DNA of 32,408 bases from Bacteroidetes bacterium RIFCSPLOWO2_12_FULL_35_15 (GTDB lineage Bacteria > Bacteroidota > Bacteroidia > 2-12-FULL-35-15): NCBI GenBank assembly GCA_001769385.1, contig MEPB01000032.1, forward strand, positions 1 through 32,408, read 5' to 3'. The position numbers were made by a program, and so were the translations under genes. Shown piece by piece: positions 5,886-29,091 of the stretch (position 1 is its first letter; each line of letters starts with the position of its first letter). The notes under the pieces were generated by a model. The model was not told where the DNA came from. It ran no database searches and saw only the letters and a program-made list of their open reading frames with translations.

Positions 5886-6248
5886 TTACTTTATGGTTAC
5901 GGTAGTTTCAGTCTTTTTCCCCGGCTCATCTAATCGAAGGACGCCAACACCTGTCATTCCCGGATAATTAGCCGCTTGTGTAGCAAACACATCAAATATG
6001 GCAGGAAGTTTTACTTCAAATGATACAACCCCGGAACCATCGGTTGTTCCAACATATTCTACCTGCCCATTAACCGAAGGGGCAGCCAGTTTTACAGTTG
6101 CAACCGCAACAGGTATTCCTGCCGTATCAACAACCATTACTTTACCATAACATGTTTTATCTTTTTTGCATGAGGTGGTTGAAATTGCTGTGAAAAGCAA
6201 TAAAAAAACAATAGCAATTGAAGAAAATCTTAGAACAAACGTTTTCAT
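5886..6248 (-). CDS. Small lipoprotein with a carboxypeptidase-regulatory-like fold
   Basis: This is a 120-residue protein with a hydrophobic N-terminus and a lipobox ending TTSC at Cys27, followed by Lys-Lys-Asp. It should therefore be lipidated and exported. The mature part (about residues 33-118) reads 'CYGKVMVVDTAGIPVAVATV ... GTTDGSGVVSFEVKLPAIFDV', the pattern of a CarboxypepD_reg/transthyretin-like beta sandwich in which a short beta hairpin follows 'DTAGxPV'. Such domains are usually structural or binding modules on the Bacteroidota surface. The gene is convergent with the 114-aa gene (10 bp apart) and divergent from the cyclophilin gene. Confidence 0.75.
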   Translation of the reverse strand: MKTFVLRFSSIAIVFLLLFTAISTTSCKKDKTCYGKVMVVDTAGIPVAVATVKLAAPSVNGQVEYVGTTDGSGVVSFEVKLPAIFDVFATQAANYPGMTGVGVLRLDEPGKKTETTVTIK

Positions 6249-6342: not shown

Positions 6343-7185
6343 ATGAATAACAAAAAACTCTTCATTGCTTTTTGCCTGATCACATTTTCTTTTTTGTTTT
6401 TCTCTTCTTTTAAAGATCTTAAAGATGGAGGTTCTGGTGAAATAAAGGTAGTGATTACAACTGATTATGGAGTAATAAAAATAAAACTTTATAACGAAAC
6501 TCCGCTTCATCGTGATAATTTTTTGAAACTTGTTAAAGAGCATTATTATGATAGTTTAATGTTTCATCGGGTAATTCGTAGTTTTATGGTTCAAGGGGGC
6601 GATCCCGATTCAAAAACAGCTGCACCACTGATGGAATTAGGAAATGGAGGCCCGGCTTATACAATTCCTGCAGAGTTCAATCAACAAATTTTTCATAAAA
6701 AAGGAGCCTTGGCAGCAGCTCGGGAAAGCGACCTGGAAAATCCATTGCAAGCATCGTCCGGTTCACAATTTTATATTGTTCAGGGGCGAATTTTTACCGA
6801 TTCACTACTGAAGATACAAGCTAAGCGTATTACGAAGATGAAATTATACAATGAAATAATTAATTCACCTGAAAATAAAAGTATTCACGAAAAATATAAA
6901 ACATTTGTAAAAGCGGAGTTACTTGATAGCATTAAATATATAAACGACTTTATCAATAAGCAGGTAGAACAAAAATTGCCGGCAGCAACTCCGTATAAAT
7001 TTTCGGAGGAACAAATAAAAGCGTACACAACAATTGGCGGAACACCACATTTAGATAACAGTTATACTGTTTTTGGCGAAGTGTATGAAGGCTTTGATGT
7101 GATTGACGAAATAGCCAAACAAGGAGTAGATAAGAACGCAAGACCACTTACGGATATCCGAATGAAAATATCATTAATTCCGTAA
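6343..7185 (+). CDS. Cyclophilin-type peptidyl-prolyl isomerase, exported
   Basis: This is a 280-residue protein with an N-terminal hydrophobic segment (residues 5-22) that looks like a signal peptide or anchor, so folding assistance in the periplasm is likely. The cyclophilin core is clear: 'ITTDYGVIKIKLYNETPLHRDNF' (39-60), then 'FHRVIRSFMVQGGDP' (74-88) with the catalytic-site Phe-His-Arg and Gln, then 'SGSQFYIVQGRIF', and 'YTVFGEVYEGFDVIDEIA' near the end. About 75 Lys/Glu-rich residues are inserted between the SGSQFYIVQG strand and the C-terminal strands, which makes it longer than the ~165-residue minimal domain. Large inserts at this place are common in Bacteroidota members. The stop codon overlaps a -7-like box for the next gene. 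Confidence 0.9.
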   Translation: MNNKKLFIAFCLITFSFLFFSSFKDLKDGGSGEIKVVITTDYGVIKIKLYNETPLHRDNFLKLVKEHYYDSLMFHRVIRSFMVQGGDPDSKTAAPLMELGNGGPAYTIPAEFNQQIFHKKGALAAARESDLENPLQASSGSQFYIVQGRIFTDSLLKIQAKRITKMKLYNEIINSPENKSIHEKYKTFVKAELLDSIKYINDFINKQVEQKLPAATPYKFSEEQIKAYTTIGGTPHLDNSYTVFGEVYEGFDVIDEIAKQGVDKNARPLTDIRMKISLIP

Positions 7186-7190
7186 CTTCG
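7183..7190 (+). promoter_or_regulatory. -7-like box overlapping the cyclophilin stop codon
   Basis: TAACTTCG matches TAnnTTTG with one mismatch and is followed by CGCC, a context often seen in this phylum. It begins exactly on the TAA stop of the cyclophilin gene. It would start transcription about 110 nt upstream of pheS, so that the mRNA includes the 30-codon ORF at 7218. Confidence 0.45.
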
Positions 7191-7217
7191 CGCCATTAAT
7201 TTATAGAGAATTAAAAG

Positions 7218-7310
7218 ATGAAATTTCATGCACAAAAAAAGTGCAGAAGCGTAAATGAAGATAGCATGGCGTGTTCCATGTGGCAATTAAAAACAATTAT
7301 CTACTCATGA
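7218..7310 (+). CDS. Possible 30-aa leader peptide overlapping the pheS start
   Basis: An ATG at 7218 opens 30 codons, MKFHAQKKCRSVNEDSMACS followed by ten more residues, and ends on TGA at 7308-7310. That stop overlaps the pheS ATG (7307-7309) in the arrangement ATGA, the classic layout for translational coupling. Two small hairpins lie within it (TGCAC/GTGCA around A7 at 7229-7245, and CATGG/CCATG at 7265-7280). There is only one Phe codon, so a simple pheL-type attenuator is not indicated. It could equally be a chance ORF in the leader. Confidence 0.3.
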   Translation: MKFHAQKKCRSVNEDSMACSMWQLKTIIYS

Positions 7311-8329
7311 AAGATAGAATAGAAGAATTATTAAAAGAGGTTGAATCATTCACCGCAAGCAGCAAAGAGCATGTGGAAGAATTCCGAATAAAAATTTTAA
7401 GCAAAAAAGGAAAAGTTACTGAGCTGTTCGATGATTTTAAAACGGTTGCTCCGGAGCTTCGAAAAGAGGTTGGACAAAAATTAAATGAACTGAAAAACAA
7501 GGCACAGGAAAAAATAAATCACCTGAAAGAAAAATTTGAAAGTTCAAACGATAAAACAAATCAAAATAATGATCTGACATTACCTGCTGAAACTATTGCT
7601 GTTGGCTCACGTCACCCGCTGTCCCTGGTACGCAATCAAATAGTAGAAATATTTTCCCGTATAGGTTTTACTGTTTCTGAAGGTCCGGAAATCGAAGATG
7701 ACTGGCATAATTTTACTGCATTAAATACACCGGCTGATCATCCTGCGCGAGATATGCAGGATACTTTTTACATCAGTGAAAATCCCGATATCGTTTTACG
7801 CACACAAACATCATCTGTACAAGTACATGTGATGGAAGGCTCACAGCCACCTATTCGTACAATATCTCCGGGTCGGGTATATCGTAACGAAGCGATATCG
7901 GCTCGTGCCCATTGTCAATTTCATCAGGTAGAAGGTTTATACATTGATAAAAATGTTTCGTTTGTTGATCTGAAACAAACGCTCTTATATTTTTCAAAAG
8001 AAATGTTTGGAGAGGAAACTCAAATACGTTTGCGCCCTTCTTTTTTTCCATTTACAGAAATTAGTGCGGAGATGGATATCTCCTGTCCGTTCTGCAAAGG
8101 CGATGGTTGTAATATATGCAAAGGAGCAGGTTGGGTAGAAATTTTAGGTTGTGGAATGGTTGATCCGGCCGTACTGGATAATTGTAAGATCGATAGTAAA
8201 CAATACAGTGGTTTTGCTTTTGGAATGGGTATTGAACGAATTGCGATGCTTAAATATCAGGTAAAAGATCTTCGATTGTTCTTTGAAAATGATCTGCGTT
8301 TTCTGAAACAATTTAAGTCAGTACTATAA
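7307..8329 (+). CDS. pheS: Phenylalanyl-tRNA synthetase alpha subunit
   Basis: This is a 340-residue protein from the ATG at 7307. A GTG at 7271 would add 12 residues that do not fit the family's usual start. It has an N-terminal coiled coil (about 1-85), then the class II catalytic core: 'GSRHPLSLVRNQIVEIFSRI', 'VSEGPEIEDDWHNFTALNTP', motif 2 around 'ISPGRVYRNEAISARAHCQF', and motif 3 'FGMGIERIAML' near the C-terminus. A Cys-rich turn (CPFCKGDGCNICKGAGW) precedes 'ILGCGMVDPAVLDN', as in many bacterial PheS. It charges tRNA-Phe with the beta subunit, whose gene (pheT) is not in the window. Confidence 0.97.
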   Translation: MKDRIEELLKEVESFTASSKEHVEEFRIKILSKKGKVTELFDDFKTVAPELRKEVGQKLNELKNKAQEKINHLKEKFESSNDKTNQNNDLTLPAETIAVGSRHPLSLVRNQIVEIFSRIGFTVSEGPEIEDDWHNFTALNTPADHPARDMQDTFYISENPDIVLRTQTSSVQVHVMEGSQPPIRTISPGRVYRNEAISARAHCQFHQVEGLYIDKNVSFVDLKQTLLYFSKEMFGEETQIRLRPSFFPFTEISAEMDISCPFCKGDGCNICKGAGWVEILGCGMVDPAVLDNCKIDSKQYSGFAFGMGIERIAMLKYQVKDLRLFFENDLRFLKQFKSVL

Positions 8330-8335
8330 TATTTT

Positions 8336-8419
8336 AACCACATAGATGCATAGTTTGTTTTATTTAAAGTTTGTACAATAGAAGCGTAGCTCCAAACATA
8401 GGACTAATGTGTAAAAAAT
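8336..8419. repeat. Imperfect inverted repeat downstream of pheS
   Basis: AACCACATAGATGCATAG (8336-8353) resembles the AACCACATAGAnnCATAG intergenic sequence seen in many Bacteroidota genomes. A weaker inverted counterpart (CAAACATAGGACTAATGTG) lies near 8393-8411. It separates pheS from the TPR gene and may act as a transcript end. Repetitive status is recalled, not tested. Confidence 0.35.
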
Positions 8420-8473
8420 TATTCTTCTTTGTTTTGTCTTTTTTCTATGCCACCATTTGGTTTAATTTTTAAC

Positions 8474-8794
8474 ATGAACATGCAACGACTCCAACAAATT
8501 CAGGAAATGCTGAAAAGTGAACCGAACGATTCCTTCCTGAATTATGCATTGGCATTAGAGTTTGCTAAATCAAATGAAATTAATAAATCCATTGATCTGA
8601 TCAATGCTTTACTGGAACGTGAACCAACATATCTTGGAGCATACTATCAATTGGGCCAATATTATGAACAAACTAATGATACGAAAATGGCTATGGATAC
8701 CTATTCCAAAGGAATAGTCCTTGCGAAACAACAAAACAACAGAAAGGCAGAAAGCGAATTAAAGGAAGCTCTTTTTATTTTGCAGGATGGATAA
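8474..8794 (+). CDS. Small tetratricopeptide-repeat protein
   Basis: Starting at ATG 8474 (or 8480), this gives about 106 residues, MNMQRLQQIQEMLKSEPNDS onward. A TTG at 8429 would extend the frame but adds unrelated residues. Two TPR-like helix pairs are visible: 'NDSFLNYALALEFAKSNEINKSIDLINALLEREP' and 'YLGAYYQLGQYYEQTNDTKMAMDTYSKGIVLAKQQNNRKA'. There is no signal peptide. Stand-alone TPR proteins of about 100 residues with this N-terminus are widespread in Bacteroidota. They should act as protein-protein adaptors, but no partner is known. It lies between pheS and a large palindrome that probably ends its transcript. Confidence 0.8.
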   Translation: MNMQRLQQIQEMLKSEPNDSFLNYALALEFAKSNEINKSIDLINALLEREPTYLGAYYQLGQYYEQTNDTKMAMDTYSKGIVLAKQQNNRKAESELKEALFILQDG

Positions 8795-22923: not shown

Positions 22924-23340
22924 ATGTTCCATAAAGCTATGTCGAAAAACAACTCTTTAGAAAACCCTTCTGTAAATCTTATTGGTGCAGGTACCATGAT
23001 TGAAGGTGATATTACAACCAATGGCGATATTCGTATTGATGGTGCTTTAACAGGGTCGATCAATGTAAAAGGAAAATTGGTTGTTGGTGTTTCAGGAACT
23101 GTGGAAGGTGAAATTATTTGTCAGAATGCAGATGTTTCAGGAACAATAAAAGGAAAAATTGGAGTAGCGGAGCTGTTATCATTAAAAGCATCATCAAAAC
23201 TAACAGGAGATATTATTACCAATAAAATTGCTGTTGAGCCGGGCGCTACATTCTCCGGTTCATGCAGTATGGGTGGAGTAATTAAAGATATTAAAGGTGA
23301 ACGAACAGAAAAAACCCAACTTGCCGAAAAAACAGCTTAA
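22924..23340 (+). CDS. Bactofilin (polymer-forming cytoskeletal protein)
   Basis: This is a 138-residue bactofilin. The core (about 22-112) shows the regular right-handed beta-helix pattern of hydrophobic/Gly turns: 'IEGDITTNGDIRIDGALTGS', 'GKLVVGVSGTVEGEIICQNA', 'VSGTIKGKIGVAELLSLKAS', 'LTGDIITNKIAVEPGATFSG'. The start at 22924 is used here; MSKNNSLEN at 22939 is an equally good start that fits homologues. Bactofilins polymerise into membrane-associated scaffolds for cell shape and envelope processes. The last 44 bp overlap the AtpZ-like gene in another frame, so it is probably co-translated with the ATP synthase front genes. Confidence 0.92.
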   Translation: MFHKAMSKNNSLENPSVNLIGAGTMIEGDITTNGDIRIDGALTGSINVKGKLVVGVSGTVEGEIICQNADVSGTIKGKIGVAELLSLKASSKLTGDIITNKIAVEPGATFSGSCSMGGVIKDIKGERTEKTQLAEKTA

Positions 23341-23527
23341 CAGTTATGCAAAATATTCTGTTATGGGTTTTCAAATGGCGGCTATTATTCTAATAGGTGT
23401 TTTTGGTGGTATAAAATTAGATGCCCTTTTAGGGTTAAAAAAGTTTCCTGTTTTTACCTTGTTGCTTTCCCTGTCTTCTGTATTTTTCGCAATGTATTAT
23501 TTCATCAAAGATTTCATCAAAAAATAA
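23297..23527 (+). CDS. AtpZ/AtpI-family F0 accessory protein
   Basis: This is a 76-residue protein starting at GTG 23297. It has a basic N-terminus (NEQKKPNLPKKQLNSYAKYS) and two membrane helices (about 24-42 and 50-68), the layout of AtpZ-type proteins that precede F0 genes and assist c-ring assembly or Mg/Ca handling. The start overlaps the bactofilin gene by 44 bp in a different frame, so translation is probably coupled. The next gene starts 1 bp after its stop. A later ATG is possible but would cut into the basic region. Confidence 0.78.
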   Translation: MNEQKKPNLPKKQLNSYAKYSVMGFQMAAIILIGVFGGIKLDALLGLKKFPVFTLLLSLSSVFFAMYYFIKDFIKK

Positions 23528-25695: not shown

Positions 25696-26190
25696 ATGGA
25701 ATTAGTAAAACCCGCATTTGGTCTTATATTTTGGATGTGTGTGTCATTCGGTCTTATTTTATTCATCCTGAAAAAGTTTGCCTGGAAACCGGTCCTTAAC
25801 ATGTTAAGTGAACGTGAAGAATCCATACAAACAGCATTGGATGCTGCCGAAAAGGCTAAAACAGAAATGCGGTTAATGAAATCGGATAATGAGCGAATCT
25901 TAAATGAAGCAAGAGCTGAACGCGATGCTTTATTAAAAGATGCACGCGAGATCAGAGAAAAAATGATTTCAGAATCAAAAGGATTAGCAACAAAAGAGGG
26001 GGAGCGCATGCTAAAATCTGCTCGTGAAAATATCCAAAATGAAAAAATGGCTGCTATTTCTGAATTGAAAAATCAGGTTGCCGTACTTTCTATTGAAATT
26101 GCTGAAAAGATCTTGAAAGCTGAATTATCAAGTGATGAAAAGCAAAAAGCATTGGTAAAAAATTTATTACAGGACATTAATCTTAACTAG
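25696..26190 (+). CDS. atpF: ATP synthase F0 subunit b
   Basis: This is a 164-residue peripheral stalk subunit. One membrane helix lies near the N-terminus (about 8-27, 'FGLIFWMCVSFGLILFILKK'), followed by the invariant-like 'FAWKPVLNMLSEREESIQTA' and a long charged helix (40-150) for dimerisation and contact with delta. The upstream leader has a run of ACTTTAA repeats. Its TAG stop overlaps the start of the ATATGAGAT repeat region before atpH. Confidence 0.95.
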   Translation: MELVKPAFGLIFWMCVSFGLILFILKKFAWKPVLNMLSEREESIQTALDAAEKAKTEMRLMKSDNERILNEARAERDALLKDAREIREKMISESKGLATKEGERMLKSARENIQNEKMAAISELKNQVAVLSIEIAEKILKAELSSDEKQKALVKNLLQDINLN

Positions 26191-26236
26191 ATATGAGATT
26201 TTAGATATGAGATTTTAGAAACCACATCTCATATCT
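26189..26236. repeat. AGATATGAGAT repeats and inverted copy before atpH
   Basis: AGATATGAGAT occurs at 26189-26199 and again at 26203-26213 (a 14-bp period), with the exact inverse ATCTCATATCT at 26226-26236. The block starts at the atpF stop and ends 27 bp before the atpH ATG. The inverse copy can pair with either direct copy. A related motif precedes atpG. Confidence 0.75.
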
Positions 26237-26263
26237 CACATCTTCCGTCTCAATACTCAAACA

Positions 26264-26821
26264 ATGCAAGGAACAAGAGTAGCATCTCGGTACGCAAAAT
26301 CATTCATCGATCTTACCATGGAGCAAGGTGTGTTTGAAGAAGCTCATAAGGATATGCAATACGTTTCGGATGTGTGTGCATCAAATAGCGATTTCGTAAT
26401 ATTCTTAAAAAGTCCCATCATCAAAACAGATAAAAAACAAGCTGTTTTGAAAGAGTTGTTCAGTGGAAAATTGAATAAAGTTACAGATGCATATATTCAA
26501 TTGATCACCGCTAAAAAACGTGAAATTTATCTGGCAGAAATTGCTAATGAGTTTATTAATCAATACAAAGAGAAGAAAAAAATATTAACGGCTGTTGTTA
26601 CCACGGCAAATGGAATTGATGATGTGATTCGCAAAAAAGTGATGGAGATCGTTAAAGGAGTGAGCACAAGCGAAGTGGTATTGCAAGAGAAAATTGATGC
26701 AAGTATTATCGGTGGATTTATTATTCGTGTTGGCGATAAACAAGTAGATGCAAGTATTGCACGCAAAATAAACCGATTAAAACAAACATTTAAAGAAAAT
26801 CCGTATTTAAAAGAACTTTAG
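26264..26821 (+). CDS. atpH: ATP synthase F1 subunit delta
   Basis: This is a 185-residue OSCP/delta subunit linking F1 to the peripheral stalk. Typical segments are visible: 'VASRYAKSFIDLTMEQG' at the N-terminus, the helix bundle to about 105, and the C-terminal 'VLQEKIDASIIGGFIIRVGDKQVDASIARKINRLKQ' motif. Length is normal. The next gene starts 18 bp after its stop and is not an ATP synthase gene. Confidence 0.95.
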   Translation: MQGTRVASRYAKSFIDLTMEQGVFEEAHKDMQYVSDVCASNSDFVIFLKSPIIKTDKKQAVLKELFSGKLNKVTDAYIQLITAKKREIYLAEIANEFINQYKEKKKILTAVVTTANGIDDVIRKKVMEIVKGVSTSEVVLQEKIDASIIGGFIIRVGDKQVDASIARKINRLKQTFKENPYLKEL

Positions 26822-26839
26822 CAGATAATAGATACAAAT

Positions 26840-27487
26840 ATGACAAAAACAACATTTATTTCAATCATATTCATTTCAGCTGTTCTGAGTACGATGTCAT
26901 GTAAAAAGAAAGACGATCCGGCACCAGCCGCTTCAGGTCCAACAACACCTGCAACATTAACTATCAACTCCAGCTATCAGGCATCTTTTTCATTAGACGG
27001 CACCGCAATTTCGTATATTCAAAGTAATCCCGATTTTAGTCTTAGTTATGGTGCGGGCGGTTCTATTGGTTCAGGAGGTTCCCCAACTAACAGGGAGTTT
27101 AATGCGTCAGCAGGATTACAAAGTACGAATGCGGCTATTACAATAACAAAAGGAACATTAACGGTCGTAGCAGGTGGTTATCCAAGCAACTCCGAATTTT
27201 TAGCTTTTTTCCCTGCTGGAGCGGTAGGTTATGCCCCAGCTACAAGTGGTAGTCATAATGGCATCGTTGTTTCCTATTGGGATGGCACCACGAATTGGAC
27301 AAGTGATAATGGAACAGCAGATCAAACAGGGTCAGTGTTTAATTTTGTTGCCACTAAAAATGTTGCCAATCCTCAGGATTATGACGTAAAATTTTATGCA
27401 ACTTTTAATTGTAAGTTGTATGATGGAGCAGGCAATATGAAAACACTTACAAATGGAAATTTTATTGGAGATTTTGCAAATATTTAA
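26840..27487 (+). CDS. Lipoprotein of unknown function inside the ATP synthase operon
   Basis: This is a 215-residue protein. The lipobox ends at Cys21 ('VLSTMSC'), then Lys-Lys-Lys-Asp-Asp, a Pro/Ala linker (DPAPAASGPTTPATLTI), and a Gly/Ser/Thr-rich beta domain ('NSSYQASFSLDGTAISYI', 'SYWDGTTNWTSDNGTADQTG', 'DYDVKFYATFNCKLYDG'). It should be an envelope lipoprotein of the Bacteroidota SCKKK type. It lies between atpH and atpA on the same strand, 18 bp from the first and 23 bp from the second, with no terminator, so it is probably transcribed with them. No family is recognised. Its unrelated function makes the insertion notable. Confidence 0.82.
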   Translation: MTKTTFISIIFISAVLSTMSCKKKDDPAPAASGPTTPATLTINSSYQASFSLDGTAISYIQSNPDFSLSYGAGGSIGSGGSPTNREFNASAGLQSTNAAITITKGTLTVVAGGYPSNSEFLAFFPAGAVGYAPATSGSHNGIVVSYWDGTTNWTSDNGTADQTGSVFNFVATKNVANPQDYDVKFYATFNCKLYDGAGNMKTLTNGNFIGDFANI

Positions 27488-27510
27488 TAATTAATTTTAA
27501 TTAAAACAAA

Positions 27511-29091
27511 ATGGCAGAAGTAAAACCAGCAGAAGTATCTGCAATATTAAGACAACAATTATCAGGTTTTAAATCAGAACAGGAATTAGAAGAAGTGGGT
27601 ACCGTATTGCAAGTAGGTGATGGTATCGCTCGTATTTATGGTCTTTCAAAAGTTCAATCTGGTGAGTTGATTGAATTTACAAGCGGCTTAAAAGGTATCG
27701 TATTAAATCTTGAAGAAGATAACGTAGGTGCGGTGGTATTAGGTTCTTCCAATGAGATCAAAGAAGGGGATATTGTAAAACGTACCGGAAAAATTGCTTC
27801 CTTACAAGTAGGAGAAGGAATGTTGGGTCGCGTGGTTGATACAATGGGAAACCCGATAGATGGTAAAGGTCCGATCACCGGAACATTATATGAAATGCCA
27901 TTGGAGCGTAAAGCACCGGGTGTTATTTTCCGTCAACCGGTAAGTGAGCCATTACAAACAGGTTTGAAAGCTGTTGATGCGATGATTCCTATCGGTCGCG
28001 GACAACGTGAGTTGATCATTGGTGATCGTCAGACGGGAAAAACGGCTGTAGCAATTGATACCATCATTAATCAAAAAGAATTTTACGAAGCAGGAAAGCC
28101 TGTATATTGTATATATGTAGCTATCGGACAAAAAGGTTCAACAGTAGCAAACATTCAACGTGTATTGGAAGAAAATGGTGCAATGCCTTATTCGGTTATT
28201 GTTTCTGCAACAGCTTCTGATCCTGCTCCAATGCAATTTTACGCTCCTTTTGCAGGTGCAGCAATTGGTGAATTTTTCAGAGATTCCGGTCGTCCGGCAT
28301 TGATCGTTTATGATGATTTATCAAAACAAGCAGTTGCATACCGCGAGGTTTCCTTATTATTACGCAGACCTCCGGGACGTGAAGCATATCCGGGAGACGT
28401 ATTTTACTTACATAGTCGTTTATTAGAGCGTGCTGCCAAGATCAATGCGAATGATGACATTGCAAAAAACATGAACGACCTTCCTGAATCAATCAAAGGG
28501 ATTGTTAAAGGTGGCGGATCATTAACCGCTTTGCCAATCATTGAAACACAAGCAGGTGACGTTTCTGCATACATTCCAACAAATGTTATTTCGATCACTG
28601 ATGGTCAGATCTTCCTGGAGTTGAACTTGTTTAACGCAGGTGTTCGTCCGGCTATCAACGTAGGTATTTCTGTATCACGTGTGGGTGGAAATGCTCAGAT
28701 CAAATCAATGAAAAAAGTTGCCGGTACGTTAAAATTGGATCAGGCACAATACCGTGAATTAGAGGCATTCTCTAAATTTGGTTCTGACCTTGATGCAGCT
28801 ACAAAATCGGTACTTGACAAAGGTTCACGCAACGTGGAAATTTTGAAACAGGGACAGTTTTCTCCAATGCGAGTGGAGCAACAGGTTGCAATTATCTATT
28901 GTGGTACAAAAGGTTTATTACAAGGTGTTGCAGTAAACAGGGTAAGAGAGTTTGAAGTAGAATATTTATCATTCTTGGAAGCAAAACACAAAGATGTGTT
29001 GAACGATCTAAAAGCAGGAAAATTCACAGATGAAATTACTTCTGTTTTAGAAAAAGTTGCAAAAGAACTAGCACCAGGGTTTAAAAAGTAA
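27511..29091 (+). CDS. atpA: ATP synthase F1 subunit alpha
   Basis: This is a 526-residue non-catalytic nucleotide-binding subunit. The N-terminal helix and beta-barrel (1-95) are followed by the Walker A loop GDRQTGKT at 171-178, '[32 protein letters not shown]' around 268-300 (Walker B and the [12 protein letters not shown] signature) and the C-terminal helical domain. Length is normal and no key residue is missing. It is preceded by the lipoprotein gene and followed, 72 bp later, by atpG. Confidence 0.98.

Follow-up and report, generated by a model that had tools for sequence, protein, structure and literature searches.

In the window analysed here, a stretch of 32,408 nucleotides from Bacteroidetes bacterium RIFCSPLOWO2_12_FULL_35_15, a gene for a predicted lipoprotein stands between atpH and atpA. 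The place of this gene raises the question of whether its product belongs to the ATP synthase or whether it is an unrelated gene that came to lie within the atp operon.

The gene and its neighbours

The lipoprotein gene is an open reading frame on the + strand (26840–27487) that begins with ATG, encodes 215 residues and has the N-terminus MTKTTFISIIFISAVLSTMSCKKKDD. It is embedded between the fourth and fifth of a run of open frames in the order atpB, atpE, atpF, atpH, atpA and atpG. The stop codon of atpH at 26821 is followed by a gap of 18 bp, and a gap of 23 bp precedes the start of atpA at 27511. An earlier note on this DNA had described these gaps and the lack of a terminator, and the description is borne out, as no + strand terminator-like site is found nearby. 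The features are the following:

26264–26821, + strand: atpH (F1 delta subunit), 185 aa, upstream neighbour; open reading frame, 95% amino acid identity to the nearest relative, order kept in relatives
26822–26839, + strand: 18-bp spacer and leader of the lipoprotein gene; no Bacteroidota-type promoter motif in its sequence
26840–27487, + strand: inserted lipoprotein gene, 215 aa; open reading frame and family alignments
Parts of the lipoprotein (limits by eye): signal-like stretch, residues ~1–20; Cys21; linker, ~24–40; conserved C-terminal part, ~115–213
27398–27469, + strand: block most conserved in the lipoprotein family, ATFNCKLYDGAGNMKTLTNGNFIG, residues 187–210; two family alignments
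27488–27510, + strand: AT-rich 23-bp spacer before atpA, without a + strand terminator-like site
27511–29091, + strand: atpA (F1 alpha subunit), 526 aa, downstream neighbour; open reading frame, 99% amino acid identity to the nearest relative

Judged from its sequence, the frame is a real gene, with homologues in other genomes and with GC (0.395), GC3 (0.255) and codon fit (0.148) inside the range of the 19 other genes of the window. The host-like GC and codon usage also rule out a foreign composition. A search of its own genome returned a single strong match (E 1.7e-139), and the next one had an E value of 0.159.

Three further observations concern the window itself. The atpF–atpH spacer holds a short tandem repeat (26188–26243), TAGATATGAGATTT in 2.3 copies, followed by the near-complementary stretch CATCTCATATCTCACATC; simple repeats of other kinds occur in the atpH–atpA spacers of several congeners. 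Upstream of the atp genes lies an AtpI-like gene (23297–23527; Pfam ATPase_gene1, 45.9 bits, above the cut-off). A second small lipoprotein-like gene, of the SCKKD type, is found on the − strand (5886–6248), with weak macroglobulin/Ig-like matches below the cut-off.

The lipoprotein family

The protein starts with a signal-like segment that ends in LSTMS and is followed by CKKKDD, and a signal-like stretch followed by Cys is present in all seven aligned family members (both by eye). The combination of this stretch with a conserved Cys suggests that the protein is probably a bacterial lipoprotein, with Cys21 as the predicted site of lipidation.

A profile search of the genus gave matches in 20 of 36 genomes at E values up to 0.01, of which only four were full-length (G000, G010, G018 and G027). 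The remaining matches were partial, many of them at the signal-peptide end; the best were C-terminal pieces within longer frames of G008 (E 2.7e-7) and G030 (E 6.1e-6), which may be distant relatives of the family. The nearest relative, G024, showed weak partial matches only (best E 1.1e-4). Counting the genome itself, the family is matched in 11 of 148 relatives (E up to 0.001) and in 4 of 395 genomes of the phylum (E up to 1e-5). Identity to the window's protein is 24–36% over homologues, 33–36% for the best of them, and 24–33% in the alignment. The best-conserved part is C-terminal and includes the motifs WxTDxGTxxQTGSxF and FNCKLYDxxGNxKTLTNGxFxG. This C-terminal block also closes a longer protein, of 311 residues with a signal-like start and Cys-Lys-Lys, that is encoded in a metagenome genome of Ferruginibacter. 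A Pfam search of the family members tested gave nothing above the cut-offs. By these searches, the protein belongs to a patchily distributed lipoprotein family without a Pfam name. Two members stand in tandem in one locus (L104, genome G094; 7101–7724 and 7840–8481).

A search of solved structures returned one match at chance level (E 0.35). Structure models by AlphaFold2 had mean pLDDT values of 34.7 from the single sequence and 39.2 from a four-row alignment, and the attempt to derive a function from structure was dropped on account of these values, which leave both a beta fold and ligand binding as guesses.

The atpH–atpA junction in the genus

The search for atpH covered 59 genomes, including 36 from the genus of the window, its own genome among them. 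A relative was scored when atpH and the start of atpA lay on one contig; 8 of the 35 congeners were unscorable, six because atpH gave no match at E 1e-10, two because a contig edge breaks the locus. The spacer is empty in all 27 scorable congeners, where it measures 19–188 bp and differs in sequence as well as length, and in G053, outside the genus, it measures 10 bp. The nearest relative has a spacer of 63 bp and is colinear with the window from atpB to atpG, minus the lipoprotein gene, with DNA identities of 89% for atpH and 91% for atpA. Across 119 distances between the ends of tblastn matches (atpB–atpE, atpE–atpF, atpF–atpH and atpH–atpA in 30 loci), only the atpH–atpA distance of the window exceeds 243 bp.

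Because the junction is empty in 27/27 scorable congeners, the lipoprotein gene is a lineage-specific insertion within this sample. The earlier note had proposed a recent insertion and a comparison of spacing in related genomes as the check. The comparison finds the gene absent from the junction in every scorable congener, and the insertion stands; its age is bounded only by its absence in the nearest relative. The contrary case considered in the note was a gene present at the same position in many relatives; this protein's gene occupies it in 0/27.

Adjacency of atpH and atpA in class and phylum

A wider sample was drawn from the best matches among 296 genomes of the phylum. A script compared 69 genomes, comprising 67 members of the window's class plus one more genome from these best matches, together with G055 from the 59-genome search above. 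The two genes are in line on one contig in 66 of the 69, the exceptions being G400, G323 and G380. By contrast, in all 15 further genomes outside the class, among the matches listed, atpH and atpA lie on separate contigs or at a distance of more than 100 kb (read by eye). The earlier note's premise that the two genes are normally adjacent thus describes the rule in the class sample, and not in the whole phylum. Taken over both sets, 18 of the 84 genomes have the genes on separate contigs or distant from each other (families f66 and f77, and the three exceptions above).

The window aside, four of the 66 junctions exceed 156 bp, at 219, 297, 499 and 601 bp. No exported-protein frame was seen by eye in the two shorter ones; the 499- and 601-bp junctions each contain one, and both belong to one other Bacteroidia genus, g21.

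A second lineage with an exported protein at the junction

Both genes could be placed in 116 of 118 g21 genomes. Their junctions fall into three classes, with none in between: 88 of at most 30 bp, five of 62–75 bp and 23 of 452–601 bp. Each of the 23 long junctions holds an open reading frame of 137–180 residues with a signal-like start (by eye). The products, here the P0002 family, share 18–89% mutual identity (median 32%); they start alike (MKK, once MNK), their middle varies, and 18 of the 23 carry TVIIQDSRPRNGxNISxGR or a variant at the C-terminus (by eye). Two members tested had no Pfam match, and five tested had no NCBIfam match beyond chance. The loci are:

L106, 2271–2807, − strand: g21 junction-family locus; further loci of the family are L107, L115–L133 and L171–L182

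A tree of AtpH and AtpA was built from 45 rows, namely the 23 occupied genomes and a non-random choice of 22 of the 93 empty ones. On this tree, occupancy requires at least 8 gains or losses (7–9 over bootstraps), of which 4 are forced by well-supported branches. Since shuffled labels require 15.3, occupancy appears partly inherited, and a single gain followed by many losses is possible. Relatives of the family also occur elsewhere, with matches at E 1e-6 in 120 of 320 genomes of that bacterial family, many of them away from the junction.

The g21 proteins resemble the window's lipoprotein in their place at atpH–atpA, their strand and their signal-like N-terminus. Homology between the two is not supported: a profile comparison gave a probability of 2.2% over 16 signal-peptide columns. 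Among the 10 pairwise matches listed, one member (G531) gave an E value of 0.002 against the window's protein as a single sequence, over residues 1–60 including the signal peptide.

Explanations for the inserted gene

We consider it probable that the gene encodes an accessory outer-membrane lipoprotein of Bacteroidota, from a patchily distributed family, that rides on the atp transcript and is not a subunit of the ATP synthase.

A second reading, compatible with this one and not exclusive of it, is that Bacteroidia tolerate arrivals at the atpH–atpA junction, and that an exported accessory gene which lands there can persist provided that it does not harm the expression of atpA. It agrees with the spacers of the genus, which vary in length and sequence, and with the repeated gain or loss of the unrelated gene in g21. 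The atpB–atpE, atpE–atpF and atpF–atpH junctions of the same loci are, however, similar in length and none exceeds 243 bp, so tolerance alone fails to explain the choice of atpH–atpA; moreover, the sample is small, and the other junctions were compared in the 30 loci above. We regard this reading as a serious possibility that falls somewhat short of an even chance. The presence of exported proteins at atpH–atpA in two lineages may be a coincidence combined with such tolerance.

A stronger version of the idea, in which the junction is a preferred slot of Bacteroidia that repeatedly recruits unrelated genes for exported proteins and thereby matches the production of envelope proteins to that of the ATP synthase, and of which the window and g21 would be two independent cases, appears unlikely. 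If unrelated exported proteins do land there repeatedly, the composition of the envelope could be coupled to the expression of energy metabolism. Taken alone, the window is a small matter, one lineage-specific accessory lipoprotein; only the occupation of this junction by an unrelated exported gene in g21 makes the finding more than ordinary. A core operon that is usually regarded as closed takes in accessory genes at one specific junction. The titles and opening lines of abstracts of the best-matching papers name neither an added gene in an ATP-synthase operon nor an atp-linked lipoprotein.

The other proposal of the earlier note, that the product is an envelope protein linked to the ATP synthase, was examined in the surroundings of the homologues. 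Fourteen distinct homologue loci, with flanks of about 1.5 to 8 kb (shorter on one side of L012, at a contig edge), were searched by tblastn with the six atp proteins of the window at E 1e-3. No atp gene was detected in any of the 14; the control, the nearest relative, matched all six. The frames neighbouring the homologues vary from place to place, and the loci of G010 and G018 have flanking genes in common. The homologues in these loci are thus free-standing, which makes the place of the window's copy exceptional. The search for homologues that the note had suggested was successful, at 24–36% identity, yet none of those in the 14 loci is linked to atp genes; with this result and the weak partial matches in the nearest relative, the proposal is not supported. 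The conserved linkage to atp genes expected of an ATP-synthase subunit or assembly factor is seen in 0/14 loci and 0/27 congeners, and the lipoprotein was rejected as a partner of the enzyme because its homologues in these loci are unlinked to atp genes.

A narrower form of the proposal holds that the protein is a lineage-specific accessory factor of the ATP synthase, or of processes in the envelope that the proton gradient drives, kept in the operon by selection for co-expression. The tight spacing, the common strand and the unrelated exported protein that 23 of 116 g21 genomes carry at this junction speak for it. Set against these are the 14 unlinked loci, the absence of the gene at the junction in the nearest relative and in each of the 27 congeners scored, and the expectation that an outer-membrane lipoprotein would sit in another membrane than FoF1; we therefore judge it very improbable. 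An artefact of assembly or binning, with the contig wrongly joined at the atp junction, is the least credible of all. The genome is indeed a 110-contig draft, but the gene is flanked on either side by atp genes that stand in the order expected and are close in DNA to those of the nearest relative; its own search of the genome gave a single strong match, its codon usage is host-like, and an insert of 0.65 kb would require two wrong joins.

As to origin, cargo of a mobile element or phage was set aside after tblastn gave no plasmid or phage match at E values up to 0.01; PHROG matches were found in single family members only (best E 0.0067). An 11-bp direct repeat, ATTAAAACAAA, occurs at 26776–26786 and 27500–27510. 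It was not taken as a target-site duplication, as one copy belongs to the last part of atpH, where the sequence is nearly the one found in the nearest relative.

Transcription and proposed function

The sole terminator-like site in 26100–27700 is on the − strand, with 1.1 expected in shuffles. The promoter consensus of Bacteroidota is TTTG/TTG-N-TAnnTTTG; it was not found in 26700–27560, which contains one bare TAnnTTTG at 27340. A scan of 26100–27700 for sigma-70-type promoters gave 10 promoter-like sites versus 6.2 (sd 2.5) in shuffles, including + strand sites at 26681, within atpH, and 27363, within the lipoprotein gene. An internal promoter of the gene's own is thus possible. Spacing, strand and the lack of a terminator suggest that the lipoprotein gene is likely co-transcribed with the atp genes.

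For the preferred reading, in which an accessory lipoprotein gene shares the atp transcript, the following course is proposed. Read-through from the atp promoter would probably transcribe the gene, and its own leader would serve for translation. Sec would export the product, which would then be lipidated on Cys21 and held by this anchor in the outer membrane, perhaps on the outward side. The C-terminal part of the protein, perhaps beta-rich, may bind a ligand or a surface. The place in the atp operon would give the lipoprotein steady, growth-linked expression.

Comparison with known systems

The best library match of the window's protein is the Riean_0653 family (NCBIfam NF052634; E 0.0031), and six of seven members match this family at E up to 1, all below the threshold. 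The likeness is to a small protein of Bacteroidota, and the match of the G010 homologue spans profile positions 2–172 of 176. The scores of the window's protein (18.4 bits) and of the G010 (19.5) and G027 (15.5) homologues stay below the cut-off of 57 bits, and the match of the window's protein, limited to residues 8–108, misses the conserved C-terminal block. The Riemerella gene emerged from a transposon screen for haemolysis, and its recombinant protein proved non-haemolytic (PMC7881567). The function suggested by that screen is not transferable to the lipoprotein of the window.

Another comparison is with the surface lipoproteins of Capnocytophaga and Bacteroides that carry an export signal, with which the window's protein shares the signal-like stretch, the Cys and the subsequent Lys and Asp/Glu residues. 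In Capnocytophaga, the optimal signal is reported to be C-x-K-(D/E)2, with a critical position (PMC5080379). Relative to this signal, the CKKKDD of the window has K-D-D shifted by one position; in three of the seven aligned family members the residues after the Cys fit it exactly. Exposure of the window's lipoprotein at the cell surface is possible.
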